Source: Deltaproteobacteria bacterium 13_1_40CM_4_68_19 (GTDB lineage Bacteria > Myxococcota > Myxococcia > Myxococcales > 40CM-4-68-19). Taken from it: a stretch of 43,704 bases of DNA. The stretch covers positions 1 to 43,704 of the forward strand of contig MNFJ01000094.1 in the NCBI GenBank assembly GCA_001918155.1, read 5' to 3'. Shown piece after piece: positions 5,583-18,790 of this stretch (position 1 is the stretch's first letter; each line of letters begins with the position of its first letter). The notes below the pieces were generated by a model. The model was not told the origin of the DNA. It saw nothing but the letters and a program-made list of their open reading frames with translations, and ran no database searches. The translations under genes and the position numbers were made by a program.

Positions 5583-6425
5583 TCACGCCGTTTCGAGGAC
5601 GAAGTCGTATTCGACGAGGAAGTGCGGGCGCCCGCGCGCATCCGTGCCGTCGGACTTGAAGTGGACCACCAGCGAGCTCTTCACGCCGAAGACTGGATCC
5701 GCGTCCAGTTGCTCATCGCCTTCGGCGAAGAGCTCGGTGACGAGCCTGCGAAAGCCCGGAGCGGAGACGATGAAGTGTGAATGCGCAGGCCGGTAGGGCT
5801 GCCGCCCCTGCAGAGCGAGGAGCGCACCCACCGGCCCATCCGTCGGAATCGGATAACTCACCGGCTTGAGGGTGTGGAACTCGTAGCGTCCGTCGGCTCC
5901 GGTCTGGAATTTCCCTCGCAAGTGCATGGGCGGCTGCGAAGGGTCCTGGATGTCGTAGAAGCCGCTCGCCGCCGTCTGCCAGACCTCGAGCACCGCGCCG
6001 GCGATCGGTTCCCCGCGAGGCGTCAACACGCGGCCGCGAAACGTGGCGGTCTCGTCGGAATCCTCCGCCGCCAGGTCGGTCCCGCGCTCGCGCGCAGGCG
6101 CGCCTTCCACGTAGAAGGGGCCCAGCACCGAGCTCTCGGTACCGCCGGCGGTCATCCGGTTGTTGATGGCGTCGACCAGCATCGAGATCCCGAGCGTATC
6201 GGAAAGGAGGATGAACTCCTGCCGCTTTTCGTCGCACATCTTTCCCGTCTCGGTGAGGAACCGGATGGCCGCAAGCCACTCCTCGGGCGTGGGCTCGACC
6301 TCGCGCACGATAGCGTGCAGATGGCGGATGATGCTCTGGAGCATCCTCCGCGTCCGCGCGTCCTCGCAACCCACGGTCCGCGCCAGGACTGCCTCGGTGA
6401 GGTTTGCTTCGGTCAGGTTGCGCAT
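5583..6425 (-). CDS. Intradiol ring-cleavage dioxygenase, hydroxyquinol 1,2-dioxygenase type
   Basis: A 280-residue non-heme Fe(III) dioxygenase with the alpha-helical N-terminal dimerisation domain of catechol/hydroxyquinol dioxygenases and the beta-sandwich catalytic domain. Predicted iron ligands are Y157 (SGFYD), Y191 (SYPIP), H215 and H217 (RPAHSH), matching Tyr-Tyr-His-His in characterised enzymes. Hydroxyquinol as substrate is inferred from length and from the maleylacetate reductase in the same operon, since hydroxyquinol cleavage gives maleylacetate; catechol or chlorocatechol cannot be excluded. The frame extends upstream through the permease gene, but that part is its shadow. The true ATG at 6425 overlaps the permease stop by 13 bases. 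It is the last gene of the long catabolic operon. Confidence 0.92.
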   Translation of the reverse strand: MRNLTEANLTEAVLARTVGCEDARTRRMLQSIIRHLHAIVREVEPTPEEWLAAIRFLTETGKMCDEKRQEFILLSDTLGISMLVDAINNRMTAGGTESSVLGPFYVEGAPARERGTDLAAEDSDETATFRGRVLTPRGEPIAGAVLEVWQTAASGFYDIQDPSQPPMHLRGKFQTGADGRYEFHTLKPVSYPIPTDGPVGALLALQGRQPYRPAHSHFIVSAPGFRRLVTELFAEGDEQLDADPVFGVKSSLVVHFKSDGTDARGRPHFLVEYDFVLETA

Positions 6426-7429
6426 GCCCGGTCCCTCTCCGGCGGGATCAGCCGCCGATGCACGGGGAAGAAATGCAGATCGAACCTGCGGGAGACAAAG
6501 CCCCACAGCCCGGCGGGAAACTTGAGGGTCACTACAACCGCCAGAAGACCCAGGCCTACCAGGTACCAGGTGCCGTAGTCCGAGAAGAGCTTGTTCAGCA
6601 GGTAGAACAGCGCCACTCCCACTAGCGTGCCCTCCAGCGTGCCCACTCCGCCCACCACGACGATGAAGATGGCGAAGGCGCTCCAGTTCACGGTGAACGC
6701 CGCGTCGGGCGAGATGCGCAAGTTGCCGAGGAAGTAGAGCGCTCCCGCCAGGCCCGCGCCGGCTGCGGCGATCAGGTACACGGCGCGCTTCGTCCGGGTC
6801 ACGTCGACGCCCTGGCTCTCCGCGGCGGTCTCGCTGTCGCGAAGCGCGAGCAGGGCCAGGCCCTCCCGCGAGCGCAAGAACCCGTAGACGGCAGCGACGG
6901 CCGCCGTCGCGCCTGCAAGACAGAGCCAGAAGGTCGCCGCCTCGCGCGTCGACCGCGAGATGCCCCGCAACGCGGTGAGGCTGGTGCCCGAACCGCCTCC
7001 GACCGTCGAGATGTTCGCGATGGAGATCCGGAACACCTCCGCGATGACCCAGGTGCCGATGGCGAAGTACCCGCCCTGCAGCCGGAAGGCGATGAACGAG
7101 ACGGGCACCGCCAGAGCGAGCGTCGCGACCATCGCCAGCGGCACCGCCAGGAACGGATTGACGTGAAGGTGGTTGCCGAGGACCAGCAACGCGTAGCCGC
7201 CCAGTCCCACGAACGCCTGCTGCCCGATCGAAACCATGCCGCCATACCCGGCGAGCAGGTTCCACATCAGCGCGAAGATCAGGTAGCAAGACATCTCCTC
7301 GAATTCGCGCATCCATCCGGGATCGGCCCACCATGGGAAGGTCGAGAGCCAAAGCACGAGCACCGCCGCGACGGCGCCGCCGATACGGCTCGCGCGCGTC
7401 GCCCGCGAGACGGTGAATGCAGCCGTCAT
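6413..7429 (-). CDS. Branched-chain-type ABC transporter permease (LivM family)
   Basis: An inner-membrane permease of 338 residues with about nine to ten hydrophobic helices and the LivM-type segments MWNLLAGYGGMVSIGQQAFVGLGGY near the N-terminus and GGVGTLEGTLVG near the C-terminus. It pairs with the LivH-type permease to import branched-chain amino acids or, in catabolic operons, aromatic acids. The ATG at 7429 is chosen because it overlaps the preceding stop as ATGA; an earlier in-frame start would run into the upstream gene. Its place inside a ring-cleavage operon suggests an aromatic substrate. Confidence 0.92.
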   Translation of the reverse strand: MTAAFTVSRATRASRIGGAVAAVLVLWLSTFPWWADPGWMREFEEMSCYLIFALMWNLLAGYGGMVSIGQQAFVGLGGYALLVLGNHLHVNPFLAVPLAMVATLALAVPVSFIAFRLQGGYFAIGTWVIAEVFRISIANISTVGGGSGTSLTALRGISRSTREAATFWLCLAGATAAVAAVYGFLRSREGLALLALRDSETAAESQGVDVTRTKRAVYLIAAAGAGLAGALYFLGNLRISPDAAFTVNWSAFAIFIVVVGGVGTLEGTLVGVALFYLLNKLFSDYGTWYLVGLGLLAVVVTLKFPAGLWGFVSRRFDLHFFPVHRRLIPPERDRACAT

Positions 7430-8289
7430 CTCGTCCTCGGAAACAGCCCGCTCGGCCGCAGGAGCAGAGCGCCGAGGAACACGACGTGACCGGTCCAGAT
7501 CCCCCATCCCGGATCGATGCGGAAGCCGATGTCCTGCGTGACGCCCAGCAGCATCCCGCCGACCAGCGTCCCGTAGAACGAACCCATGCCGCCGATGATG
7601 ACTGCTTCGAACGCGTAGAGGAGCAGCGATGGTCCGTCGGTAGCCGAGACGGTCGTCTTCATGCCGTGGAGCGTGCCCGCGAACGCCACCACGAGAAAGG
7701 CGATGCCGGTCGCCAGCGCGTACACGTGGCGATGATCGAGGCCCATCAGCTCGGCGGCCTCGCGATCGTCGCTCACCGCGCGGAATGCTCTGCCGAGATC
7801 GGTGCGGTCGAAGAGCAGCTGCAAGCCCACCGTCAACGCCAGAGCGGCGGCGAAGATGAGCAACGGGAGTGCCCCGATCGAGAAGCCCTCGGCGAGCTGG
7901 AAAGTGGCGGTGTTCAGGCCACCCGAGTCGATCGAACGGGGGTCGGCGGTATAGATCTGTTGCAGCACGTTCTGGATGACGATGGCCAGCCCGAAGGTGA
8001 CGACGAGCGACCGCATCGGGTCCTTCCCGATGGTTCCGTTGAGCACCAGCCGCTGCAGCAGATAACCGCCGGCGAACGCCAGCGGAAGCAGGACGATCAG
8101 CGCCAACCAGGGCGACCCCGTCACCACCGCGAGGGACCAGGCCACGAATGCCGAGAGGATGATGAAGTCACCGTGAGCGGTATTGGTCAGGCGCATCACG
8201 CCGAAGAGCAGCGACTGGCCCAGCGCGAAGAGCGCATAGAGACCTCCCAGGAGCACGCCCTGCACCAGCGTGTCGAGGAAGCTCAGCAT
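7426..8289 (-). CDS. Branched-chain-type ABC transporter permease (LivH family)
   Basis: A 287-residue permease with about eight membrane helices. It has the LivH features LLGGLYALFALGQSLLFGVMRLTNTAHGDF near the N-terminus and EAVIIGGMGSFYGTLVGG near the C-terminus. The open frame continues upstream through the livF-like gene, but homology begins at the ATG at 8289, two bases after the livF stop. Its own stop overlaps the LivM start. Together the two permeases form the transmembrane channel of the importer. Confidence 0.92.
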   Translation of the reverse strand: MLSFLDTLVQGVLLGGLYALFALGQSLLFGVMRLTNTAHGDFIILSAFVAWSLAVVTGSPWLALIVLLPLAFAGGYLLQRLVLNGTIGKDPMRSLVVTFGLAIVIQNVLQQIYTADPRSIDSGGLNTATFQLAEGFSIGALPLLIFAAALALTVGLQLLFDRTDLGRAFRAVSDDREAAELMGLDHRHVYALATGIAFLVVAFAGTLHGMKTTVSATDGPSLLLYAFEAVIIGGMGSFYGTLVGGMLLGVTQDIGFRIDPGWGIWTGHVVFLGALLLRPSGLFPRTR

Positions 8290-8291
8290 CG

Positions 8292-8990
8292 TCACACGCC
8301 GAAATACGCCCGCGAGATCCGCTCGCGGGTCAGCTCGCTCGAAAGCCCGTGGAGCGTGATCCGGCCTTCCTGCATGCAATAGAGCCGGCGCGAAACCCGC
8401 TGCGCGACCGCCACGTCCTGCTCCACGATCACGGCCGTCACGCCGTCGCGGCACACCTGCTCGAGCGCCTGGTAGATCTCCTTCACCACCACGGGCGCGA
8501 GGCCGAGGGACAGCTCGTCGCAGATCAAGAGCTGCGGGTTGCTCATCAGGGCGCGCCCGATCGCCACCATCTGCTGCTCGCCACCGGAAAGAGAGGCGGC
8601 GGGGTGAGCGCGCCTCTGCTGCAGTCTGGGGAAGAGGCGGTAGACCGAGTCGAGCTTCCAGGGACCGGCGCGCTTCACGTACCCGCCCATCATGAGGTTT
8701 TCCTCGGCCGAGAGGCTGGGAAACAGCCGCCTGCCCTCGGGCACCAGCGCGATCCCGCGCCGTACGATCCTGCCAGGCGCAAGACCGCCGATCGGCTCTC
8801 CGGCGAACCTGACCGCTTCCCGCGGCGCCCGCAGCAAGCCGCAGACAGTCTTGAGGAGAGTGGACTTTCCCGCGCCGTTCGCGCCGACGAGCGCCGCGAT
8901 TTCGCCGCGCTCGATCTCGAAATCCACGCCGAACAGCACCTGGGAATCGCCGTAATACGCGTCGAGCTTCCGGGTGGAGAGGAGATCCAT
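8292..8990 (-). CDS. ABC transporter ATP-binding protein (LivF family)
   Basis: A 232-residue ATPase. Walker A is GANGAGKST (near residue 36), the ABC signature is LSGGEQQM, and Walker B is LLICDELSLGLAP. The ending ISRAYFGV is typical of LivF proteins. It energises the importer with the LivG-type subunit, whose stop lies two bases before this ATG. It is cytoplasmic and peripheral to the LivHM permeases. Confidence 0.94.
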   Translation of the reverse strand: MDLLSTRKLDAYYGDSQVLFGVDFEIERGEIAALVGANGAGKSTLLKTVCGLLRAPREAVRFAGEPIGGLAPGRIVRRGIALVPEGRRLFPSLSAEENLMMGGYVKRAGPWKLDSVYRLFPRLQQRRAHPAASLSGGEQQMVAIGRALMSNPQLLICDELSLGLAPVVVKEIYQALEQVCRDGVTAVIVEQDVAVAQRVSRRLYCMQEGRITLHGLSSELTRERISRAYFGV

Positions 8991-8992
8991 GG

Positions 8993-9715
8993 TCAGGCCG
9001 CAAGCCCCATGTACACGCGCTGCACCAATGGATCCCCCATCACCGCGACAGGCGCGCCCTCGGCGATCTTGCGGCCGGCGTCGAGCACCAGCAGCCGCCC
9101 GGCCGCGGCGAGCAGCGCGTGCACGACGTGCTCGATCCAGAGCATGGTCACGCCAGTCCGCTGGATGCGGCGGATCTCCTCGACGAGCTCCATCGCCTCG
9201 TGCTCGGTCAGCCCGCCGGCGATCTCGTCCAGGAGGAGCAGCCGCGGTCCCGTCGCCAGCGCGCGCGCCAGCTCGAGGCGCTTGCGGTCGAGCAAGGTCA
9301 GGGTTCCCGCCAGTCGATTCGCCTTCGAGAGCAGACCGGTTTCGCCGAGGACCTGCACGGCACTGTCGTAGGTTTCCTTCTCCCGCTTCTGCGAGCCGAA
9401 GGACGCCGCCACGATCAAGTTCTCGAACACCGTCATTGCGCCGAACGGTTGCGGGACCTGGTAGGCGCGCCCGATCCCCAGGCGGCAGCGCCGGTGGGGC
9501 GGCTCGTGGCTGATCTCATGCCCCCCGAAACGGATCTGTCCTGCATCCGCGCGGACGTCTCCGCTGACGAGGTTGAAGAGCGTGGTCTTGCCCGCGCCGT
9601 TCGGTCCGAGGATGCCGAGGGTCTCGCCCTCCTCGACGGCGAGCGAGAGGCCGTCGATCACCCGAAGGGCGCCGTAGCTCTTCGACACCCCATCGAGGGC
9701 GAGGATCGCGCCCAT
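8993..9715 (-). CDS. ABC transporter ATP-binding protein (LivG family), divergent signature motif
   Basis: A 240-residue ATPase with Walker A GPNGAGKTT near residue 37, Q-loop region AYQVPQPFGAMTVFENL, and Walker B LLLLDEIAGGLTEHE. Where LivG proteins usually have an LSYGQ-type signature before RRLEIARAL, this protein reads LTLLDRKRLELARAL, so the canonical signature is absent while both Walker motifs are intact. The partner LivF subunit keeps LSGGE, so the transporter would have one consensus and one degenerate composite ATP site. The ATG at 9715 follows the binding-protein stop by two bases. Confidence 0.93.
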   Translation of the reverse strand: MGAILALDGVSKSYGALRVIDGLSLAVEEGETLGILGPNGAGKTTLFNLVSGDVRADAGQIRFGGHEISHEPPHRRCRLGIGRAYQVPQPFGAMTVFENLIVAASFGSQKREKETYDSAVQVLGETGLLSKANRLAGTLTLLDRKRLELARALATGPRLLLLDEIAGGLTEHEAMELVEEIRRIQRTGVTMLWIEHVVHALLAAAGRLLVLDAGRKIAEGAPVAVMGDPLVQRVYMGLAA

Positions 9716-9717
9716 CC

Positions 9718-10950
9718 TCAGGAGATCAGCTTGAGCTTGCCGGCCACCGGAATCTCGGGCGCCGCATGGTTGCTGACGATGACCAGCTCGTACCGGTGCT
9801 TCTTGCCCTTCACCCACTGGCCGAGGACGAGCGGCGTCTTCGAGACGTTCTTGAACGGGCCCCCACCGCCCCACTTCACCGGGCCCACGACGGTGGAAAG
9901 GTTGGTCGCGGCGACCGCGTCGCGCAGCTGCTTCTTGTCGTGCGGGTCCCGCGCCCGGTGCAGGGAGTCGACCGCCACCTCGAAGAGCGCGTGTGCAAAC
10001 CCGATGGGCTGCGTCCACTGCCTGCCGCTCGCCGATTCGTACGATTCCGCCAGCTGCCTAGCGCTCTGACCCGTGAGCGACGACTTGAACGGGTGCGAAG
10101 GCGACCACCAGACCTCGGTCGAGAGCCCTTCGCCGAGCTCGCCGAGCGCCTCGATGGCGCCGGGAAACAGCAGGGCCTTGCCCAGCGTGACGACCTTGGG
10201 ACGATAGCCTTGCTGCCGCGCCTGCGTGAGGAAGGTCTTGGCGTCGGGCGGGATCACCACGCCGGTGACGATGTCGGCAACCTGCTTGAACGCCGCGATC
10301 TGCGCGGAAAAATCGTTGTTCATGTTCTGGAAACGGCCGGGGTCGATCAGCGTGAAGCCCTCCGCCTGCAGCGGCTTCGGAAAGCCGCGCTCCTTGTCGC
10401 CCCAGGCATTGCCGTCTCCGTCGTTGGGGAAGAGGCCACCGACCTTCTTGTTGGTGGTTACCGACTTCCAGCCGGCGAGGAAGTTGCCGATCACGTCTTC
10501 GAGGCCCCAGAAGAAGTGATACGTCCACTCGAAGCCCTTGCCAGGGTCCCCGTTGCGACCGAAGAACCACGGCTGCCAGGGCACGACCGTGGAGATGCAG
10601 GGCACTTCGTTGAGCTCGCAGGCGTCGCAGACCGGGTTCGCCGTCTCCGGCGTCGAGGACACCAGCACCAGGTCGACTTTCTCCTTGAGGATGAGGTCGT
10701 TTGCGACTTCGCCGGCCCGGTTCGGGCTGGACTGGCTGTCCTTCTGCAGCACCTTGATCTCGGTCTTCTTGTCGGCCGCGAACAGCTTGTTCATCTGCTC
10801 GATGATGAACCGGTCCGCCTCGCCGAACGGCGCCAGCGCGCCGGTCTGCGGCGAGACGAAGCCGATGCGGATGGGCCGCTTTTGCGCAAAGGCAAAGCGC
10901 GGCAGTCCGAGAATCGCTGCGGCCTTGATCAACGCTCGACGTGTTGTCAT
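9718..10950 (-). CDS. Periplasmic substrate-binding protein of the branched-chain/aromatic ABC importer
   Basis: A 410-residue type-1 periplasmic binding protein (Peripla_BP_6 fold). The N-terminus MTTRRALIKAAAILGLPRFA is a twin-arginine-like signal (TRRALIK) ending near FAFAQ. The mature part starts with the family motif IRIGFVSPQTGALAPFGEADRF. A GGGGGGAG ribosome site precedes the ATG at 10950, which overlaps the maleylacetate reductase stop as ATGA. It would capture the substrate in the periplasm and deliver it to the LivHM permeases. Given the operon, an aromatic acid such as 4-hydroxybenzoate is more likely than leucine; this is inference from context. Confidence 0.92.
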   Translation of the reverse strand: MTTRRALIKAAAILGLPRFAFAQKRPIRIGFVSPQTGALAPFGEADRFIIEQMNKLFAADKKTEIKVLQKDSQSSPNRAGEVANDLILKEKVDLVLVSSTPETANPVCDACELNEVPCISTVVPWQPWFFGRNGDPGKGFEWTYHFFWGLEDVIGNFLAGWKSVTTNKKVGGLFPNDGDGNAWGDKERGFPKPLQAEGFTLIDPGRFQNMNNDFSAQIAAFKQVADIVTGVVIPPDAKTFLTQARQQGYRPKVVTLGKALLFPGAIEALGELGEGLSTEVWWSPSHPFKSSLTGQSARQLAESYESASGRQWTQPIGFAHALFEVAVDSLHRARDPHDKKQLRDAVAATNLSTVVGPVKWGGGGPFKNVSKTPLVLGQWVKGKKHRYELVIVSNHAAPEIPVAGKLKLIS

Positions 10951-11984
10951 ACGCTCCCCCCGGGCCTGCGGCCCTCCCAGGCGTCCTGCAAGAGCTGGCG
11001 AACGGCGCGGCGCTCCAGCGGTCGCGGGTTCGGATACGGCTGCATCGTGGCCATCTCCGCGGCCCGGTCGAGGCCACTCTCCGGCATGCCGAGATCGCGC
11101 AACGCCATGGACGCCCCGAGCCGCCGGGCGAGATCGTATACGCCGGAAGGGGCCTCTTTGGCGTTCAGAGCGGCGGCGATCCGCCGCATCGCCTCGGGCG
11201 CGGCGGACTGGTTGTAGGCGAGCGCGTGGGGCAGCACCGCAGCATGCGTTTCGGCATGCGGAAGGTTGAAGGTCCCGCCGAGCGTGTGACAGAGCTTGTG
11301 GTGCAATCCCATCGCCGCTCCGGCGAGGACGAGGCCGCAGAGCCATGCGCCATACAGACAGCGCTCGCCGTCCCCGGGAAGGCCCCCAGCGAGGGCGCGG
11401 ATCCCTTCCTCGGCGAGCAGGGCATGCACCGGCGCGACGTTCTCGGCGTAGAGGCCTTCGCAGCCGTGCGCGATCGCATTCATTCCGCTCATCGCGGCGA
11501 TCTTCGGGGGAAGCGGGGCAATGACCGCGGGGTCGTAGATCACCGTGCGCGGCAGTACCCGGACGTCGCGGCCGGTCTTCTTCTGCCCTCCTTCGGTGAT
11601 GCCGAAAACGGGCGTCATCTCCGAGCCGGAATAGGTGGTCGGAATGGCGAGGATGGGCAGGCCCGACTCGAGGGCAATGGCCTTGGCGAGTCCGATGGTC
11701 GAGCCGCCTCCGACGGCGATCGCGCAGTCGGCGTCGAGCCGCCGCGCCTCCTCGCGAGCAGCGCGCGCCACCTCGATCGGGACATGCATCACCGCGCCGT
11801 CGAAGATTCCAGCACAGCGGCCGGCGAGGCGGCGTTTGATGTCGTCGGCGGCTCGCCGGTGCGGCGTGGAAAGCACGAGCGCTCGCCTCGCGCCCAGAAG
11901 CTCGATCTCGCGCTCGAGGTGCGAGAGGCTTCCCGCTCCGAACAGCACCCGGGGACTGTGGAAGGCGAAGGAGATCATGCGCAC
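10947..11984 (-). CDS. Maleylacetate reductase
   Basis: A 345-residue iron-type alcohol dehydrogenase. The nucleotide site is GGGSTIGLAKA, followed by ILAIPTTYSGSEMTPVFG, and the maleylacetate reductase hallmark GGTFNLPHAETHAAVLPH lies in the helical domain. It reduces maleylacetate to 3-oxoadipate with NAD(P)H, the step after hydroquinone or hydroxyquinol ring cleavage. The start overlaps the CoA-transferase B gene by 10 bases; a second in-frame ATG lies at 11978. Its stop overlaps the binding-protein start. By position and chemistry it corresponds to HapF/PnpF. Confidence 0.94.
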   Translation of the reverse strand: MRMISFAFHSPRVLFGAGSLSHLEREIELLGARRALVLSTPHRRAADDIKRRLAGRCAGIFDGAVMHVPIEVARAAREEARRLDADCAIAVGGGSTIGLAKAIALESGLPILAIPTTYSGSEMTPVFGITEGGQKKTGRDVRVLPRTVIYDPAVIAPLPPKIAAMSGMNAIAHGCEGLYAENVAPVHALLAEEGIRALAGGLPGDGERCLYGAWLCGLVLAGAAMGLHHKLCHTLGGTFNLPHAETHAAVLPHALAYNQSAAPEAMRRIAAALNAKEAPSGVYDLARRLGASMALRDLGMPESGLDRAAEMATMQPYPNPRPLERRAVRQLLQDAWEGRRPGGSV

Positions 11985-12631
11985 ATGTCCTGTGGCGGAG
12001 GAACGAGCGCGGCGCGCGTGACCCGCTGCAGCTCGGCGAAGGTGAGCCCGTCCACCATCTCACGGACGCGCAGCCCGACAGGCGTGACGTCGATCACCGC
12101 CAGGTCGGTATAGATGCGATCGACGCAAGCGACGGCGGTGAGCGGATACCGGCAGCGCTCGACGATCTTGCTCTCGCCCGCCCGCGTGAGGTGCTCCATC
12201 ATCACGAGCACCTGCTTGGCGCCGATGGCCAGGTCCATCGCGCCCCCAACCGCCGGGATGGCGTCCGCCGCGCCGGTGTGCCAGTTGGCCAGATCTCCCG
12301 ACACCGAGACCTCGAACGCGCCGAGCACGCAGATGTCGAGGTGCCCTCCGCGCATCATCGCGAAGGAATCGGCATGGTGGAAGAAGGAGCCGCCCGGCAG
12401 CAGCGTGACGGGCTGCTTGCCCGCGTTGATCAGGTCGGGATCCTCCTCGCCCGGAGCCGGCGCTGGGCCCATGCCGAGGATCCCGTTCTCGCTGTGGAGG
12501 AAGATCTCGCGATCGCGCGGCAGGTAGTTGGCGACCAGTGTGGGCATGCCGATGCCGAGATTGACGTACGCCCCCTCCGGAATGTCGCGCGCCACCCGGG
12601 CCGCGAGCTGCTCGCGGGTCAGGCGCTTCAT
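11975..12631 (-). CDS. 3-oxoacid (3-oxoadipate) CoA-transferase subunit B
   Basis: The 218-residue beta subunit of a class I CoA-transferase. It has the SENGILGMGPAP motif containing the catalytic Glu that forms the CoA thioester, and the downstream PGGSFFHHADSFAMMRGGH. It transfers CoA from succinyl-CoA to 3-oxoadipate, the expected next step after maleylacetate reductase. The ATG at 12631 overlaps the subunit A stop as ATGA. Acetoacetate is an alternative substrate in this family; the operon favours 3-oxoadipate. Confidence 0.93.
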   Translation of the reverse strand: MKRLTREQLAARVARDIPEGAYVNLGIGMPTLVANYLPRDREIFLHSENGILGMGPAPAPGEEDPDLINAGKQPVTLLPGGSFFHHADSFAMMRGGHLDICVLGAFEVSVSGDLANWHTGAADAIPAVGGAMDLAIGAKQVLVMMEHLTRAGESKIVERCRYPLTAVACVDRIYTDLAVIDVTPVGLRVREMVDGLTFAELQRVTRAALVPPPQDMCA

Positions 12632-13290
12632 GCGACCACCACGCGATGGACGAAGATTCCCGGGGTGACGACGGCCTCGGGATCGAGCGCGCCGACATCG
12701 ACCACCTCGTCGACCTGGGCCACGGTGCAGGCCGCCGCCGTGGCCATCACCGGACCGAAGTTGCGCGCGGCCTTGCGGTAGACGAGGTTCCCCAGCCGAT
12801 CGCCGCGATGCGCCTTGATGAGCGCGAAATCGGCCGTCAGCGGGTACTCGAGCACGTGCGGCCGGCCCGCGATCAGGCGCGTCTCCTTGCCTTCGGCCAG
12901 CAGCGTGCCGTGGCCGGTCGGAGTGAAGAAGGCTCCGATGCCCGCGCCCGCCGCGCGGATGCGCTCGGCGAGATTGCCCTGCGGCACCACCTCCAGCTCT
13001 ACTTCCCCCGCCCGGTAGAGCGCGTCGAAGACGAACGAATCGGCCTGTCGCGGAAACGAGCAGACCATCTTGCGCACGCGGCGCGCTTTGAGCAGCGCCG
13101 CGAGGCCCCTCTCGCCATTGCCGGCGTTGTTGTTGATGACGGTCAGGTTTCTCGCACCTTGCGCGATCAAGGCATCGATCAATGCCGAAGGCTGCCCCGC
13201 CACGCCGAACCCGCCGATCATGATCGTCGCGCCGTCGGGCACGTCGGCGACGGCGGCTTGCAGCGAGGCGACGGTCTTGTTCACCATCAT
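12628..13290 (-). CDS. 3-oxoacid (3-oxoadipate) CoA-transferase subunit A
   Basis: The 220-residue alpha subunit, with the CoA-binding signature GATIMIGGFGVAGQPSALI near the N-terminus and the GIGAFFTPTGHGT region. The start is one of three clustered codons (TTG 13293, ATG 13290, ATG 13287); ATG 13290 shares one base with the dehydrogenase stop (TGATG), typical of translational coupling. It forms a heterotetramer with subunit B. Confidence 0.93.
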   Translation of the reverse strand: MMVNKTVASLQAAVADVPDGATIMIGGFGVAGQPSALIDALIAQGARNLTVINNNAGNGERGLAALLKARRVRKMVCSFPRQADSFVFDALYRAGEVELEVVPQGNLAERIRAAGAGIGAFFTPTGHGTLLAEGKETRLIAGRPHVLEYPLTADFALIKAHRGDRLGNLVYRKAARNFGPVMATAAACTVAQVDEVVDVGALDPEAVVTPGIFVHRVVVA

Positions 13291-14765
13291 CAATCCTGGC
13301 GCGGGTAATAGGCTGGGATCTGCGCGTCGATGTTGACCCAGACCGACTTGGCCTGCGTGTACTCGCGCATCGCCTCGAATCCCATCTCACGGCCGTAGCC
13401 TGAGCTGCCGGTGCCGCCGAAAGGCGAGGCGGGATTCACGCGCTTGTAGCAATTGATCCAGACCATCCCGCTCTTCATCTCGCGGGCGAACCTGTGCGCC
13501 CTCTGGACGTTCGCAGTCCACAAGCCGCCGCCCAGACCGTATTCGGTGCCGTTGGCGAGGGCCAACGCCTCGTCGTCTTCGCGGAAGGTGGTGACCGTCA
13601 CGAAGGGGCCGAACACCTCTTCCTGGTACACGCGGTCCGCCGGTTTCGCCCGCACCACGGTCGGCTCCACGTAGCAGCCGCGGGAGAGCTCGGAGCGGTC
13701 GGGAGGCGCTCCGCCGAGCAGGACCTCGCCGCCCTCGTCCTTCGCCACCCGCACGTACGACAGCACGCGGTCGCGATGCACTGTCGAGGTCAGCGGTCCC
13801 ATCTCCGTCGCGGGCTCGATGGGATTGCCGAGCCGGATCGAGCGCGCCAGGGGGAGGAACTCCGCCAGGAACGCGTCGGCGATCCTCTCCTGCAGGAGCA
13901 GCCGCGAACCCGCGATGCAGGCTTGACCCTGGTTGTGGAAGATCGCGAAGGCCGAGCCATTCACTGCCGCAGCGAGATTGGCGTCGTCGAAGACGATGTT
14001 GGCACCCTTTCCACCCAGCTCCAGCTGGACCTTTTTCAGGTTGCCCGACGACGCTTGAACGATGCGCCGGCCCGTCGCCGTCGAGCCGGTGAAGGCGATC
14101 TTGGCGACGCCCGGGTGCTCGGCCAGGTACTGTCCGGCCACGGCCCCCAGCCCCGGCACGATGTTCACCACGCCTTCGGGAAATCCGACCTCCGCCATCA
14201 ACTCGGCGACGCGGAGGCTGGAGAGCGGCGTGAGCTCGGCGGGCTTCATCACCACGCAATTCCCGGCGGCGAGCGCGGGAGCCATCTTCCAGCTGGTGAA
14301 CATGAGGGGGAAGTTCCAGGGGACCACCTGCCCCACGACGCCGAGCGGCTCGCGGAGGAGATAGTTGAGGAACCCCGCCTCCACCGGAATGACGGAGCCT
14401 TCGAACTTGTCCGCCATCCCGCCGAAGTAACGGAACGTCGCGGCAGTGCGCGGAGCGTCGAGGGCGCGCGTATCGCGCAGCGGATGGCCGGTGTCGAGCG
14501 TCTCCAGCCTGGCCAACTCCTCCGCGTGCTCCTCCATCCTCTCGGCCAGCTTCAGGAGCAACCGACCCCGCTCGGCAGCGGCGGTCCGGCTCCACTTCGG
14601 AAACGCGGCACGCGCCGCCTCCACCGCCTTGTCGATGTCCACTTTGCCCGCCATCGATACGTCGGCCAGCGGAGTGTTGTCGTGCGGGTTCAACGAGGGC
14701 AGCGTCGCGCCGTCCTCCGCCGGGACGAACCGTCCGCCGATGTAGAGCCGATGCTCGATCTCCAT
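13290..14765 (-). CDS. Aldehyde dehydrogenase, probable 4-hydroxymuconic semialdehyde dehydrogenase
   Basis: A 491-residue NAD(P)-dependent aldehyde dehydrogenase. Catalytic residues are visible: the Asn of VPWNFP, the general-base Glu of LELGGKGANIV and the nucleophile Cys of GQACIAGSR. In known hydroquinone pathways, HapE/PnpE of this superfamily oxidises 4-hydroxymuconic semialdehyde to maleylacetate. Its position between the hydroquinone dioxygenase genes and maleylacetate reductase makes that the most likely role. The superfamily is secure; the substrate is inferred from the operon. Confidence 0.9.
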   Translation of the reverse strand: MEIEHRLYIGGRFVPAEDGATLPSLNPHDNTPLADVSMAGKVDIDKAVEAARAAFPKWSRTAAAERGRLLLKLAERMEEHAEELARLETLDTGHPLRDTRALDAPRTAATFRYFGGMADKFEGSVIPVEAGFLNYLLREPLGVVGQVVPWNFPLMFTSWKMAPALAAGNCVVMKPAELTPLSSLRVAELMAEVGFPEGVVNIVPGLGAVAGQYLAEHPGVAKIAFTGSTATGRRIVQASSGNLKKVQLELGGKGANIVFDDANLAAAVNGSAFAIFHNQGQACIAGSRLLLQERIADAFLAEFLPLARSIRLGNPIEPATEMGPLTSTVHRDRVLSYVRVAKDEGGEVLLGGAPPDRSELSRGCYVEPTVVRAKPADRVYQEEVFGPFVTVTTFREDDEALALANGTEYGLGGGLWTANVQRAHRFAREMKSGMVWINCYKRVNPASPFGGTGSSGYGREMGFEAMREYTQAKSVWVNIDAQIPAYYPRQD

Positions 14766-14774
14766 GCCTCCCTC

Positions 14775-15119
14775 TCAACCCGCGATGCGGATCTTGCGCT
14801 CCGATACAGCGAGCGGAACTCGCGTCAGCGCGTCGCCCGCGCAGGGCCCTTCCTCGCAGAATCCGTCGTCGAACCGGAACATCGCGTAGTGCGTCACGCA
14901 GTAGATGCGCGAGTGATCGTAGATGAGGAACCGGTCCGGCTCGAGGTTGAGCGGCGTGCCGAAGTGAGGGCACCTGTTCACGTAACCCCAGACCCTTTCG
15001 CCGCTGCGCAACACCAGCAGCCGGAACGGTTCGCTCCCTTCCCCGTACACGAACTGCCGGGCCTTTCCGTCGGGCACCTCGTCGAGGGCGCAGACCTCGG
15101 TGCCCGGCGGAGGGGGCAC
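14775..15119 (-). CDS. Rieske [2Fe-2S] ferredoxin-like protein
   Basis: A 114-residue single-domain Rieske protein. The cluster ligands are the Cys-x-His of CPHFG (near residue 50) and the Cys-x-x-His of CVTH (near residue 74). No membrane anchor is present, so it is a soluble electron carrier. The start is probably the GTG at 15119, one base after the stop of the dioxygenase large-subunit gene, whose 3' end carries the GAGG that could serve it. It sits between the ring-cleaving enzyme and its dehydrogenase with no oxygenase or reductase gene beside it. It may keep the dioxygenase Fe(II) reduced or serve an unlinked oxygenase; both are guesses. Confidence 0.9.
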   Translation of the reverse strand: MPPPPGTEVCALDEVPDGKARQFVYGEGSEPFRLLVLRSGERVWGYVNRCPHFGTPLNLEPDRFLIYDHSRIYCVTHYAMFRFDDGFCEEGPCAGDALTRVPLAVSERKIRIAG

Positions 15120-15120
15120 C

Positions 15121-16149
15121 TCAGAACTCGACCGGATAGGGCTTGAGCTGGCCCGTCTCGTACAGCTTGGGCAGATCCATGCGCGCGTTCTCCCAGACGA
15201 GCAGCATGGAGCGCTTGGTGGCGAAACCCTGGTGGCGGATATCGGCCGGCATGCTGGCCACGTCGCCCGGGCGCATCAAGAGCCGGGCGCGGGGCTTGCC
15301 GGTCTCCTTGTCCTCCACCTCCCACTCGATCTCGTCGGTGAGCTGGACGAACCACTCGACGCGGTCGTTCCCGTGCTTGATGGGGAGGATGTATTCCTCG
15401 GTGGTCGGGCAGAAGAGCGACTCCCGGCAGACCGACGTCACGGACGGGTTCCAGGTGACGTCGGATCGCGAGAGGTACTTGAAGAGATTGATCGCGTGCA
15501 GCTTCCCTTCGAAGCCAGGCTCCACTTCGATGACGGGGTCGTCCTGCGGCACGTCGGCGAACGCGCGATTCACCGGAAGATCATCTCGCAGCGGAGAGTC
15601 GCCGGACATTCCCGGCATCCGCTTGGTGGCCACGCGCGTCCGCTCGATGGCCTCGATGTTGTCGCCGTTCTTCGGACCGGCCCAGGTCGAGCCGGTTTCC
15701 TCCGGCGCCGCGAAGGGATCGAATCCGGCGCTGCACCAATCGCGCAGGATGGCCTTGCAGGTGGCCATGGCGAAGGGCGAATCGAATTCCTCGACGTAGG
15801 AGAGCCCGGCCTTGTGATACGCCTCGTGGTACCGGCCGGCGAAGAACTGCACCCGCCCGTACAGGTTGCGGCTTCCGAACATCGGGTCGAAGTTCACCCA
15901 GCCGTAGAAGAAACCCCAGGCCACATCGCGCATCAGCGAGCGCAGGAACGCATCTGCCGACATGCGGTGCTCGAGCCGGCCCTGCGGCGTAGGCCAGCTG
16001 AGGTGGACGAAGTAGTCGTCGCGCAAGAAGTGGAATTGTCCCAGCTCGAAAGCGCGGAAGCCGGTCTTCGGGTCGGGCTCGCTCATCACCACATTGAACT
16101 GCGGTGGCCTCGCCGGCCCTCGCACTGCTGCCGATTCGGGCATTGCCAT
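15121..16149 (-). CDS. Hydroquinone 1,2-dioxygenase large subunit (HapD/PnpD type)
   Basis: A 342-residue protein (about 38 kDa), the size of the large subunit of the two-component Fe(II) hydroquinone 1,2-dioxygenases (HapCD, PnpCD, HqdAB). It has a cupin-like C-terminal half including NDRVEWFVQL and RPGDVASMPADIRHQG. It cleaves hydroquinone to 4-hydroxymuconic semialdehyde with O2. Start ATG 16149 follows GGAGA in the leader; an ORF extension to 16185 lacks support. The small-subunit gene ends 11 bases upstream. Identification rests on recalled family resemblance, subunit sizes and gene order with dehydrogenase and maleylacetate reductase, not on a search. Confidence 0.85.
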   Translation of the reverse strand: MAMPESAAVRGPARPPQFNVVMSEPDPKTGFRAFELGQFHFLRDDYFVHLSWPTPQGRLEHRMSADAFLRSLMRDVAWGFFYGWVNFDPMFGSRNLYGRVQFFAGRYHEAYHKAGLSYVEEFDSPFAMATCKAILRDWCSAGFDPFAAPEETGSTWAGPKNGDNIEAIERTRVATKRMPGMSGDSPLRDDLPVNRAFADVPQDDPVIEVEPGFEGKLHAINLFKYLSRSDVTWNPSVTSVCRESLFCPTTEEYILPIKHGNDRVEWFVQLTDEIEWEVEDKETGKPRARLLMRPGDVASMPADIRHQGFATKRSMLLVWENARMDLPKLYETGQLKPYPVEF

Positions 16150-16160
16150 GGCCGTCTCCT

Positions 16161-16655
16161 TCAGTGGGTGCAGATCTCCGCCCACTTCTGCTGGGTGAGG
16201 TCGCCGAGGATGGTCTGCTGGATCATCACGGAGGGCCGCGCTGCGCTGAACTGGTACGCGGCGCCTTTGGGGAGCAGGGCCTGGTGGCCACGCTTGAGAT
16301 GGATGCGGCCCATCTTCTTGCCGTTTGGAGGGCGAGGAAGGCGCTGGGTTCCATCCTTGCTGCGCGCGATCACCGAATCGCCGGGCTCGACGAACGAGAC
16401 CGTCACCTCGCCGTCCATCACCACCACGAATTCGTCGTGGCTGGCCGCAAACCAGTCGGAGGTGCCCTCGGCGCGGATCGCCTCGATCACGTAGTCGAGG
16501 TTCTTCGCTACCGCGACCTTGTCGTACGGCCGGGACTTCGACGCGACCTCGAATACGTTCGAGTAGCAGTAATGCTTGGGATCGTCGTCGATGATCGAGA
16601 GGTGGCCCCTCTCGAAGCTCTCGAGCGACCCCATGACCGTCGTGTAATGGCCCAT
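16161..16655 (-). CDS. Hydroquinone 1,2-dioxygenase small subunit (HapC/PnpC type)
   Basis: A 164-residue cupin-like protein (about 18 kDa) matching the alpha subunit of hydroquinone dioxygenases. Recognised family stretches are GSLESFERG, the SNVFEVASKSRPYDKVAVAKN region, the SHDEFVVVMDGEV strand and the end GDLTQQKWAEIC. Start ATG 16655 has a GGAGG ribosome site in the leader; a longer frame to 16706 would enter the promoter. It is the first gene of the catabolic operon and is preceded by a good sigma-70 promoter and an IclR-type operator. Confidence 0.86.
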   Translation of the reverse strand: MGHYTTVMGSLESFERGHLSIIDDDPKHYCYSNVFEVASKSRPYDKVAVAKNLDYVIEAIRAEGTSDWFAASHDEFVVVMDGEVTVSFVEPGDSVIARSKDGTQRLPRPPNGKKMGRIHLKRGHQALLPKGAAYQFSAARPSVMIQQTILGDLTQQKWAEICTH

Positions 16656-16748: not shown

Positions 16749-16759
16749 GGGACTAGACT
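16731..16759 (+). promoter_or_regulatory. Promoter of the iclR-monooxygenase pair, overlapping the operator
   Basis: TTGTTC (16731-16736), 17 bases, then TAGACT (16754-16759). The -35 lies inside the operator, so the bound regulator should repress its own gene. Predicted transcription start is at about 16766, directly at the GTG, implying a leaderless or nearly leaderless mRNA. Confidence 0.5.
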
Positions 16760-16766
16760 TCCGGCC

Positions 16767-17549
16767 GTGAATGCTCCAACACCACGCAGCGGCGATGCCT
16801 ACGTCCAGTCGTTCGCGCGCGGCCTCTCCGTGATCCGCGCGTTCAGTGGCGAGCGACCCGCGATGACGCTCTCCGAGGTCGCCGCGGCTGCCGGATTGAC
16901 GCGGGCTGGCGCGCGCCGGATCCTCCTCACGCTGGTCCAGCTCGGCTACGTCTCCCTCGACGAGCGCAAGTTCCGTCTGACCGCGCGCATCCTCGACCTG
17001 GGATTCGCCTACCTGTCATCGATGCCGTTCTGGAACCTGGCCGAGCCCATCATGGAGGCGCTGGTCGAGCAGGTGCACGAGTCCTCGTCGGCCTCCGTGC
17101 TCGAGGGCACCGACATCGTCTACGTGCTGCGTGTTCCGACGCACAAGATCATGACCATCACGCTCGGCCCCGGCAGCCGGCTGCCGGCGTACTGCACCTC
17201 GATGGGCCGCGTGCTTCTCTCCGGGCTGGACGACGCGCAAGTGGACTCGATCCTGCGCCGGTCGAAGATCGAAGCGCGCACGCCCTGGACGGTGACCGAC
17301 CGCGGTGAGCTGCGGAAGCTGATTGCCGAGGTGCGCGCCCGGGGCTGGGCGCTTGTGAACCAGGAGCTCGAGGAGGGCCTGGTCTCGATCAGCGCGCCGA
17401 TCCGCGAGCGCAACGGCCGGATCCTCGCCGCCCTCAATGTCAGCGGCCAGGCGAACCGCACCTCCCCGCAGCAGGTGGTGAAGCGTTTCCTCCCTCCCTT
17501 GCGCGCCGCCGCGGAGCGGCTCAGCGACCTGCTGCGGCGAAGGTCATGA
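16767..17549 (+). CDS. IclR family transcriptional regulator (PcaR/PobR-like)
   Basis: A 260-residue regulator with an N-terminal winged helix (MTLSEVAAAAGLTRAGARRIL is the HTH) and a C-terminal IclR ligand-binding domain (GRVLLSGL, EGLVSISAPIRERNGRI). Overall similarity is to the beta-ketoadipate-pathway IclR regulators that respond to aromatic acids or 3-oxoadipate. Start is the GTG at 16767: upstream frame is non-coding and no ATG fits. No Shine-Dalgarno is seen and the predicted +1 is at the start codon. It probably activates the divergent operon and represses itself. Its stop overlaps the monooxygenase start as ATGA. Confidence 0.92.
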   Translation: MNAPTPRSGDAYVQSFARGLSVIRAFSGERPAMTLSEVAAAAGLTRAGARRILLTLVQLGYVSLDERKFRLTARILDLGFAYLSSMPFWNLAEPIMEALVEQVHESSSASVLEGTDIVYVLRVPTHKIMTITLGPGSRLPAYCTSMGRVLLSGLDDAQVDSILRRSKIEARTPWTVTDRGELRKLIAEVRARGWALVNQELEEGLVSISAPIRERNGRILAALNVSGQANRTSPQQVVKRFLPPLRAAAERLSDLLRRRS

Positions 17550-18790
17550 AGTGCATCGTCGCCGGCGGCGGGATCGGCGGGATGGCCCTGGGCCTATCGC
17601 TTCACGACGCCGGCCTTCGCGACGTGGAGATCTACGAGTCGGCGCCGGCGGTCAAGGAGCTCGGCGTCGGCATCAACATCCTGCCCCACGCGGTGCGCGA
17701 ATTGACCGAGCTGGGCCTGGCGGAAGCGCTGGGCGCCGCCGGCATCCCGACCGCCGAGCTTGCCTATTACTCCCGGCACGGACAGCGGATCTGGGCCGAG
17801 CCTCGCGGCCTCGCCGCGGGTTACCGCTGGCCACAGTTCTCGATCCACCGGGGCCAGCTGCTGGGCATTCTCCATCGCGCAGTCCTCGCGCGGCTCGGCG
17901 CGGGCCGCGTGCATACCGGCCATCAACTGGTGCACTTCGGGCAGGAGCAAGGACGCGTCTGGGCCGAGTGCGCCGGGTATTCCCGTGTCGAGGGCGATGT
18001 GCTCGTCGGGTGCGACGGCATCCATTCCTGCGTGCGCCGCACCTTCCATCCCAAAGAAGGCCCCCCGAAGTGGAATGGAATCACCATGTGGCGCGCGGTG
18101 ACGGCCGGCAAGCCGTTTCTCACCGGCCGGACGATGATCATGGCTGGCCATTTCGGCCGGCGGATGGTGGTCTACCCCATCTCGAAGGCGCACGAAGAAA
18201 AAGGCCTGGCCCTGATCAACTGGGTGGCGGAGCTCAAGAACGCTCCCGACCAGGCCATGCCGGTGCAGAACTGGGAGCACACGGCGCGCGTCGACGAGGT
18301 GGTCGAGCCGTTCGCGTCGTACGTCTTCGATTTCCTCGACGTGCCGGCCATGATCCGGGGCGCCGGGACCATCTACCAGTACCCGATGGTGGACCGCGAT
18401 CCGCTTCCGACCTGGAGCTTCGGGCGAGTCACGCTGCTAGGAGACGCGGCCCACCCGATGTTCCCGGTCGGCTCCAACGGGGCGTCGCAGGCCATCATCG
18501 ACGCGCGCGTCCTCGCTCGGGAGCTGGCGCTGCAGCCCTCGATCGAAGCCGCGATCGACGCCTACGACGCCGCGCGGCGCCCGGCGACTGCAGCCATCGT
18601 GCTCGCGAACCGGCAGGCAGGTCCCGAACGATGCATGGACATCGTCGAGGAGCGGGCGCCGGACGGGTTCAGCGATCTCACGGCGGTCGTCAGCCAGGAG
18701 GAGCTGCTGGAGATCTCCAGCGCCTACAAACGGACGGCCGGCTTCGATCCGGCCATCCTCAATGCGCGGCCTTCGCTGTCAGTGCGCTGA
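17546..18790 (+). CDS. FAD-dependent aromatic monooxygenase, PhzS/salicylate hydroxylase-like
   Basis: A 414-residue group A flavoprotein monooxygenase. The Rossmann motif GGGIGGMALGLSL starts near residue 7, the NAD(P)H/FAD DG motif is VGCDGIHSCVRR, and the ribityl-binding GD motif is LLGDAAHPMFPVGSNGASQA. Several stretches (GVGINILPHAV, SIHRGQLL, QYPMVDRDPLP) resemble PhzS, which performs decarboxylative hydroxylation. Co-transcribed with the IclR regulator and divergent from the hydroquinone operon, it is a good candidate to make hydroquinone from 4-hydroxybenzoate (1-hydroxylation with CO2 loss) or hydroxyquinol from a dihydroxybenzoate. The family is secure; the substrate is inference. 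Confidence 0.9.
   Translation: MKCIVAGGGIGGMALGLSLHDAGLRDVEIYESAPAVKELGVGINILPHAVRELTELGLAEALGAAGIPTAELAYYSRHGQRIWAEPRGLAAGYRWPQFSIHRGQLLGILHRAVLARLGAGRVHTGHQLVHFGQEQGRVWAECAGYSRVEGDVLVGCDGIHSCVRRTFHPKEGPPKWNGITMWRAVTAGKPFLTGRTMIMAGHFGRRMVVYPISKAHEEKGLALINWVAELKNAPDQAMPVQNWEHTARVDEVVEPFASYVFDFLDVPAMIRGAGTIYQYPMVDRDPLPTWSFGRVTLLGDAAHPMFPVGSNGASQAIIDARVLARELALQPSIEAAIDAYDAARRPATAAIVLANRQAGPERCMDIVEERAPDGFSDLTAVVSQEELLEISSAYKRTAGFDPAILNARPSLSVR

Follow-up and report, generated by a model that had tools for sequence, protein, structure and literature searches.

What does a Rieske protein do in an operon for ring cleavage? The window (the whole stretch of DNA that was analysed, 43,704 nucleotides) encodes such a protein next to a hydroquinone dioxygenase (Table 1). 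To our knowledge, the upkeep of oxygen-sensitive Fe(II) ring-cleaving dioxygenases in bacteria is known in detail only for XylT, which reportedly reactivates catechol 2,3-dioxygenase (Polissi and Harayama 1993 and Hugo 1998, as cited in PMC2590616). The original prediction was that the Rieske protein, having no oxygenase or reductase partner in the operon, would be dedicated in the same way to the dioxygenase beside it.

Table 1. Genes of the operon and its surroundings, with positions in the window
Feature	Coordinates	Strand	Evidence
Intradiol ring-cleavage dioxygenase, probable hydroxyquinol 1,2-dioxygenase	5583..6425	-	PF00775 E 3e-39; PF04444 E 3e-30
ABC transporter ATPases and permease, same system as the substrate-binding protein	7426..9715	-	PF00005/PF12399 at 8993-9739; PF02653 at 7426-8217; second ATPase by inspection
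Substrate-binding protein, branched-chain-type ABC transporter, 410 aa	9718..10950	-	Open frame, neighbours, sequence inspection
Iron-type alcohol dehydrogenase family, probable maleylacetate reductase	10947..11984	-	PF25137/PF00465; matches annotated maleylacetate reductases of plasmid clusters
3-oxoacid CoA-transferase subunit B	11975..12631	-	PF01144 E 1e-44
3-oxoacid CoA-transferase subunit A	12628..13293	-	TIGR02429 369.6 bits, cut-off 128.5
Aldehyde dehydrogenase, probable 4-hydroxymuconic semialdehyde dehydrogenase (HapE/PnpE)	13290..14765	-	PF00171 E 5e-175; substrate from context
Rieske [2Fe-2S] protein, 114 aa, C-x-H-x21-C-x2-H	14775..15119	-	PF00355 E 3e-7; alignment A1; predicted fold
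Hydroquinone 1,2-dioxygenase large subunit (HapD/PnpD)	15121..16185	-	PF18191 E 1e-58; PDB 4zxa E 7e-151
Hydroquinone dioxygenase small subunit (HapC/PnpC)	16161..16655	-	Position and conservation beside HapD in L015-L019
IclR-type regulator, divergent	16752..17549	+	PF01614, PF09339
FAD-dependent aromatic monooxygenase-like protein	17546..18790	+	PF01494 E 3e-20; NF005720 578.8 bits, cut-off 400

The Rieske gene starts with GTG (15117-15119), a single base away from the TGA of the large subunit (15121-15123), and the ATG of the aldehyde dehydrogenase lies 9 bases past its stop. This one-base distance had been noted at the outset, and the PF18191 and PF00171 matches of the two neighbours confirm that the gene is wedged between a ring-cleaving dioxygenase and a dehydrogenase. 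HapD of the window has all of H271, N273, E277 and H318, which we take to be the counterparts of the PnpD iron ligands. The small subunit gave no match in a Pfam search; its probable ATG start at 16655 was chosen by position, in an open frame that extends to 16706. The intradiol dioxygenase gene forms the distal end of the same-strand run that contains the Rieske gene. In three other genomes, Rieske proteins with 58-62% identity are encoded at the same place, so the presence of the gene in this operon is more than chance; the dehydrogenases encoded at the loci L015-L017 are 83-84% identical to that of the window.

The match to PF00355 (30.7 bits, Pfam cut-off 20.3) comes with a ligand motif, C50-P-H52 ... 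C74-x2-H77, in which 21 residues separate H52 from C74. Among the 24 relatives aligned in A1, C50, P51, H52, C74, H77, F81, G86, G91, and L98 are invariant, and C88 is kept in at least 90%. An AlphaFold model computed from four sequences (pLDDT 79.7, pTM 0.77) has Rieske ferredoxins and other Rieske proteins as its closest predicted matches (Z up to 8.3), with a best Foldseek E of only 2e-3. A phmmer search of the solved structures with the window protein alone gave no relative at significant E, and the best match of a profile search was a biphenyl dioxygenase ferredoxin (E 6e-9). A Rieske protein of the bc1/b6f type was considered and rejected, since the extra cysteine pair of that type (CTHLGC ... 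CPCH), present in the genome's own L005, is absent from the window protein, which has CPHFGT and CVTH. By its ligands and predicted fold, the protein is a stand-alone Rieske ferredoxin. It has this fold in common with BphF, CarAc, and T4moC, the Rieske ferredoxins of ring-hydroxylating oxygenases, but its ligand pairs are 21 residues apart as against 16-17 in 1fqt and T4moC. A second cysteine pair, C88-x4-C93 (GxCxxGPCxG; codons 88-93, window 14841-14858), is retained in most relatives in A1 and lost in the L057/L058 types.

BphF, CarAc, and T4moC serve oxygenase systems, whereas no oxygenase or ferredoxin reductase gene was found within the operon of the window. The search was extended to the rest of the draft genome (3.46 Mb, 74.8% complete), which holds six Rieske matches, only one of them on the contig of the window. 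Neither PF00848 (Rieske oxygenase) nor PF14759 (GR-type ferredoxin reductase) has a match in this draft, and PF00175 has a single one, on another contig. The missing partner in the operon is thus as first noted, and the distal Rieske oxygenase that might have used the protein was looked for and not found, which is no proof of its absence since the draft is incomplete. The other Rieske proteins are bc1-like (L005), double-domain (L003/L004), of 152 aa (L001), or small and linked to rluC (L002). We therefore consider it improbable that the protein is an orphan electron carrier whose partner, be it a Rieske oxygenase or some other redox enzyme, is encoded elsewhere. Its modelled fold, which is that of oxygenase ferredoxins, and the incompleteness of the genome speak for such a role, but the draft offers no candidate by PF00848 or PF14759, its remaining Rieske genes are of the types just listed, and the repeated linkage to ring-cleaving enzymes described below would be left unexplained.

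The nearest relatives of the Rieske protein are found in metagenome-assembled genomes (MAGs) of Betaproteobacteria. Since in the window's own family the search gave only the rluC-linked Rieske type, apart from the window itself, the operon was probably acquired horizontally. The family-level relative G028 has hapC, hapD, and the dehydrogenase without a Rieske gene in between (L056, 3400-4210); its hapD lacks approximately residues 83-158 and changes frame, which may reflect deletion and decay or a misassembly.

If the Rieske protein is dedicated to the hydroquinone dioxygenase, its gene should be found with hapCD elsewhere. We collected 34 HapD loci (20 plasmid places, the window, L015-L019, L047, six further genomes of the search in the order, and G028), of which 33 are informative, as L018 ends at the end of a contig and was left uncounted. 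A Rieske gene of the subfamily lies within 10 kb of HapCD in 22 of the 33 and within 16 kb in 24 of them, so the predicted co-occurrence survived the survey. The 22 loci comprise 16 of the 20 plasmid places (by coordinates), the window, L015-L017, L047, and G483; the two others, G222 and G264, have the Rieske gene 12-16 kb from hapD on the same contig, directly after the intradiol gene. The gene is lacking in the remaining nine, which are two plasmids of Sphingobium cloacae, Variovorax, Massilia, G199, G283, G351, G547, and G028. A third S. cloacae plasmid, with a consecutive accession, does carry it, and in Massilia a copy is found next to a VOC gene at a distance of about 66 kb. Of 296 genomes from the phylum of G199, an Actinomycetes MAG, only 2 contain relatives of the Rieske protein, and these score below 60 bits.

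The order of the genes is reshuffled among HapCD clusters and the linkage of the Rieske gene is retained: it follows hapD in the window and in L015-L017, the dehydrogenase in L047, and elsewhere the intradiol gene or a YciI gene. Instead of HapCD, the partner might be the hydroxyquinol-type intradiol dioxygenase that the same operon encodes. An intradiol gene does belong to the gene run of the window, and the Rieske gene comes directly after it in L105, L106, and L107, the first two being 12-16 kb from hapD. We regard this as quite unlikely, given that the Rieske gene follows hapD in the window and in L015-L017, that L047 has no intradiol gene within about 8 kb, and that the hmgA, hppD, and VOC contexts presented below have none either. 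Furthermore, intradiol dioxygenases work with Fe(III).

Part of this linkage is on record. The figure legend available from PMC6063337, where ten clusters are compared, labels PnpX2 as a 'ferredoxin' in pnpC1C2DECX1X2 clusters, with the order small subunit, large subunit, dehydrogenase, maleylacetate reductase, intradiol dioxygenase, YciI, and ferredoxin. We liken the Rieske gene to pnpX2 by its position: Pseudomonas sp. JS425 has the order of the PnpX2 clusters with the Rieske gene last, whereas in the window it comes directly after hapD with no YciI gene before it. Hence, the presence of a Rieske gene in p-nitrophenol clusters is already known as an annotation. In clusters of Pseudomonas and Burkholderia, the intradiol gene and the Rieske gene are separated by a YciI-family gene at the pnpX1 position (L010, 6672-6989; L013, 6678-6989).

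What appears to be new, judging by the literature searched, is the wider linkage of the Rieske subfamily to hmgA, hppD, and VOC enzymes. A search of plasmids with the Rieske protein of the window matched 49 records, for 38 of which the context is known. The other 11 (SMMA_5_TC, five Bradyrhizobium, two Roseomonas, two Acinetobacter, and P. liaowanqingii) are mostly near-duplicates. In 33 of the 38, the Rieske gene adjoins a dioxygenase gene of aromatic catabolism: 16 HapCD, 7 hmgA and/or hppD, and 10 VOC. In Paracoccus it follows hppD, in a stretch without hmgA. The five negatives are Roseomonas mucosa, Bradyrhizobium BWA-3-5, P. sprentiae, Acinetobacter baumannii, and Nonomuraea. The Bradyrhizobium sp. 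BWA-3-5 member (L061) lies between fdxB and nif/Fe-S assembly genes, in a nitrogen-fixation cluster.

The phylum of the window gave a similar picture, with matches to A1 in 56 of 193 genomes. All 45 places scoring at least 110 bits are beside a dioxygenase gene (37 hmgA/hppD, 7 VOC, and the window), counts that do not represent independent events because the genomes are related. Among the 17 places with lower scores, eight were examined and none is beside such a gene. Conversely, 37 of the 60 strong hmgA loci of the phylum have a Rieske gene within about 1.5 kb and 23 do not, in a tally made by hand where G110 was counted via the contig that holds part of hmgA. The linkage to hmgA and/or hppD is thus found in two bacterial groups, the phylum of the window and the seven plasmids. 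The idea of a Rieske protein dedicated to a dioxygenase therefore stands as regards linkage, which extends beyond HapCD to HmgA, HppD, and VOC enzymes, but is weakened by the HapCD loci without the gene, by its frequent position after the intradiol gene, and by two groups of relatives without any dioxygenase (see below).

Since the VOC partners have an invariant set of H, H, and E and match structures of 2,3-dihydroxybiphenyl dioxygenase, they are probably Fe(II) extradiol enzymes. Five loci (L150, L153, L157, L178, L179) share a conserved cluster of VOC dioxygenase, Rieske protein, FAD monooxygenase, and LysR-like regulator, an uncharacterised aromatic pathway to which several of them add a prolyl-oligopeptidase-like hydrolase or an FAA hydrolase.

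The range of partners bears on another explanation, in which the electrons of the Rieske protein reduce the quinones and semiquinones of hydroquinone, hydroxyquinol, and homogentisate, returning the diol to the pathway. Para-diols, which oxidise to quinones, are the substrates in the HapCD, intradiol, and homogentisate contexts alike; the frequent position of the Rieske gene after the intradiol gene would also fit. The resemblance of the VOC enzymes to catechol-type extradiol enzymes argues against this explanation, as does the predicted fold, which implies no quinone site, and we hold it to be unlikely.

The reading that we prefer, and to which we give an even chance, is that of a dedicated Rieske electron donor that would return oxidised dioxygenase iron to Fe(II), as XylT does. 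In the hydroquinone dioxygenase, O2, H2O2, or turnover would oxidise the Fe(II) of the active site to Fe(III), a general cellular reductase encoded elsewhere would reduce the Rieske protein, and the latter would donate one electron to the active site, thereby restoring the dioxygenase. The analysis shows the Rieske fold and ligands, the operon, a draft genome without a Rieske oxygenase match, and a repeated linkage to several kinds of Fe(II) dioxygenase that persists through changes in gene order. That electrons are transferred at all, in which direction, to which partner, and from which reductase is what we infer.

A close parallel is that with XylT, for which the reactivation of the extradiol enzyme is established (as cited in the part of PMC2590616 available to us). 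Both are [2Fe-2S] carriers that have an Fe(II) ring-cleaving dioxygenase as their genetic neighbour and no reductase of their own. They differ in fold, as XylT is of the plant type while the window protein matches PF00355 alone and has Rieske ligands (two Cys and two His), and in partners, which are catechol 2,3-dioxygenase for XylT and would be HapCD, HmgA, HppD, and VOC enzymes for the Rieske subfamily. In addition, the class of XylT is basic (same part of PMC2590616), whereas the window protein, with a calculated net charge of -3.3 at pH 7, is acidic; so is HapD.

The available passages of PMC3222310 report that O2 and H2O2 each inactivate a purified hydroquinone dioxygenase and that Fe(II) with ascorbate restores part of the activity lost to O2; they suggest, citing chlorocatechol dioxygenase, that ferredoxins reverse this loss in vivo. 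They also report that Fe(II) does not reverse the substrate-driven loss of the TTNP3 enzyme; simple iron oxidation thus does not account for all inactivation. Our literature search, made in titles, abstracts, and passages with few subscription journals covered, returned neither a function for this Rieske protein nor any paper that describes its linkage to hmgA, hppD, or VOC genes. Hence, of the novelty originally claimed, the naming of a 'ferredoxin' in such clusters and the general suggestion of reactivation by ferredoxins have precedents in the passages cited above (PMC6063337 and PMC3222310), and the function itself is without one in the literature searched. Several points count against a donor role: pnpC1C2DE is called sufficient for hydroquinone conversion and recombinant PnpC1C2 is active in vitro, according to the parts available of PMC6063337 and PMC4871426, respectively. 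To these are added the HapCD and hmgA loci without a Rieske gene (9 of 33 and 23 of 60), a clade of 11 loci linked to SbtA instead (see below), and the acidic charge unlike that of XylT.

A broader version of the donor reading covers the whole subfamily, which may be a general and exchangeable maintenance partner of non-heme Fe(II) enzymes that act in aromatic catabolism and have unrelated folds (the cupins HapCD and HmgA, and HppD and the VOC extradiol enzymes), reducing their oxidised iron. We put this forward more tentatively, as somewhat under an even chance. HppD and HmgA contain non-heme iron and are sensitive to its oxidation. Because non-heme iron and this sensitivity are common to the partners, reducing oxidised iron is the simplest function that they could share. 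If true, the problem that XylT solves would have been solved a second time, and independently, by the Rieske subfamily. A gene that many clusters for pollutant degradation list as no more than 'ferredoxin' or 'X2' would then have a function, and biotechnology would gain a simple route to stabilising such dioxygenases.

To place these contexts in the history of the subfamily, a tree of 105 rows was built (leaving out L004, at 43 bits). The context labels need 15 changes on this tree, as against a mean of 64 for shuffled labels. The labels include 12 'house' rows, seven of which (L089, L091-L096) were assigned by score, their flanks being only about 1.5 kb long, and L033, L034, L049, and others are labelled 'none'. 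In AU tests made without the long-branch rows L161, L093, L091, L022, L061, and L115, a single clade was not rejected for the 67 ring-associated rows (p 0.48) nor for the 32 homogentisate-type rows (0.81), and was borderline for the 13 HapCD rows (0.0455). Several independent origins of the association between Rieske proteins and dioxygenases are thus not supported, and we do not claim repeated recruitment, since a single clade of ring-associated rows is compatible with the data. Mantel tests were considered as a special signal between Rieske protein and HapD and were rejected as such: the distances of HapD correlate with those of the Rieske protein (r 0.80) and with those of the dehydrogenase as well (0.85), which shows joint inheritance only.

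The search in the order shows where the linkage ends. Among its 21 places above 115 bits, four are with HapCD, two are 12-16 kb from it, one is with an intradiol gene (on a contig of 3.2 kb), three are with VOC genes, and 11 are of the SbtA type. The same A1 query gave well over 100 further places with lower scores, few of which were examined. The 11 Burkholderiales loci (L044-L046, L097-L104) are near an SbtA-type bicarbonate transporter (PF05982), mostly with a PII-like gene and with no dioxygenase; a Pfam match identified the transporter in one locus and inspection by eye did so in others, and not all 11 showed it. Their rows form one starred clade of the tree. A widespread, lower-scoring Rieske type, found in the arrangement rluC-HAD-Rieske, is also without a dioxygenase. 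Because of these two groups, the subfamily is not exclusive to dioxygenases.

These other neighbours in related clades, together with the lack of the gene in some clusters, would suit a redox buffer, a sensor of iron or Fe-S stress, or a passenger inherited along with catabolic clusters, with no direct partner. Such a role seems rather unlikely to us, as the linkage survives changes in gene order and spans several unrelated dioxygenases.

The SbtA-linked clade lies by purE/purK/purC-type genes, and in L044-L046 the Rieske gene adjoins a gene for an FAD-linked oxidase of roughly 975 aa with Fe-S domains. Small Rieske genes beside or near an RluC-type pseudouridine synthase (L112-L116, L154-L156, L162-L164; names by eye) are accompanied by a HAD phosphatase in Burkholderiales and by an isocitrate/isopropylmalate-type dehydrogenase in the family of the window.
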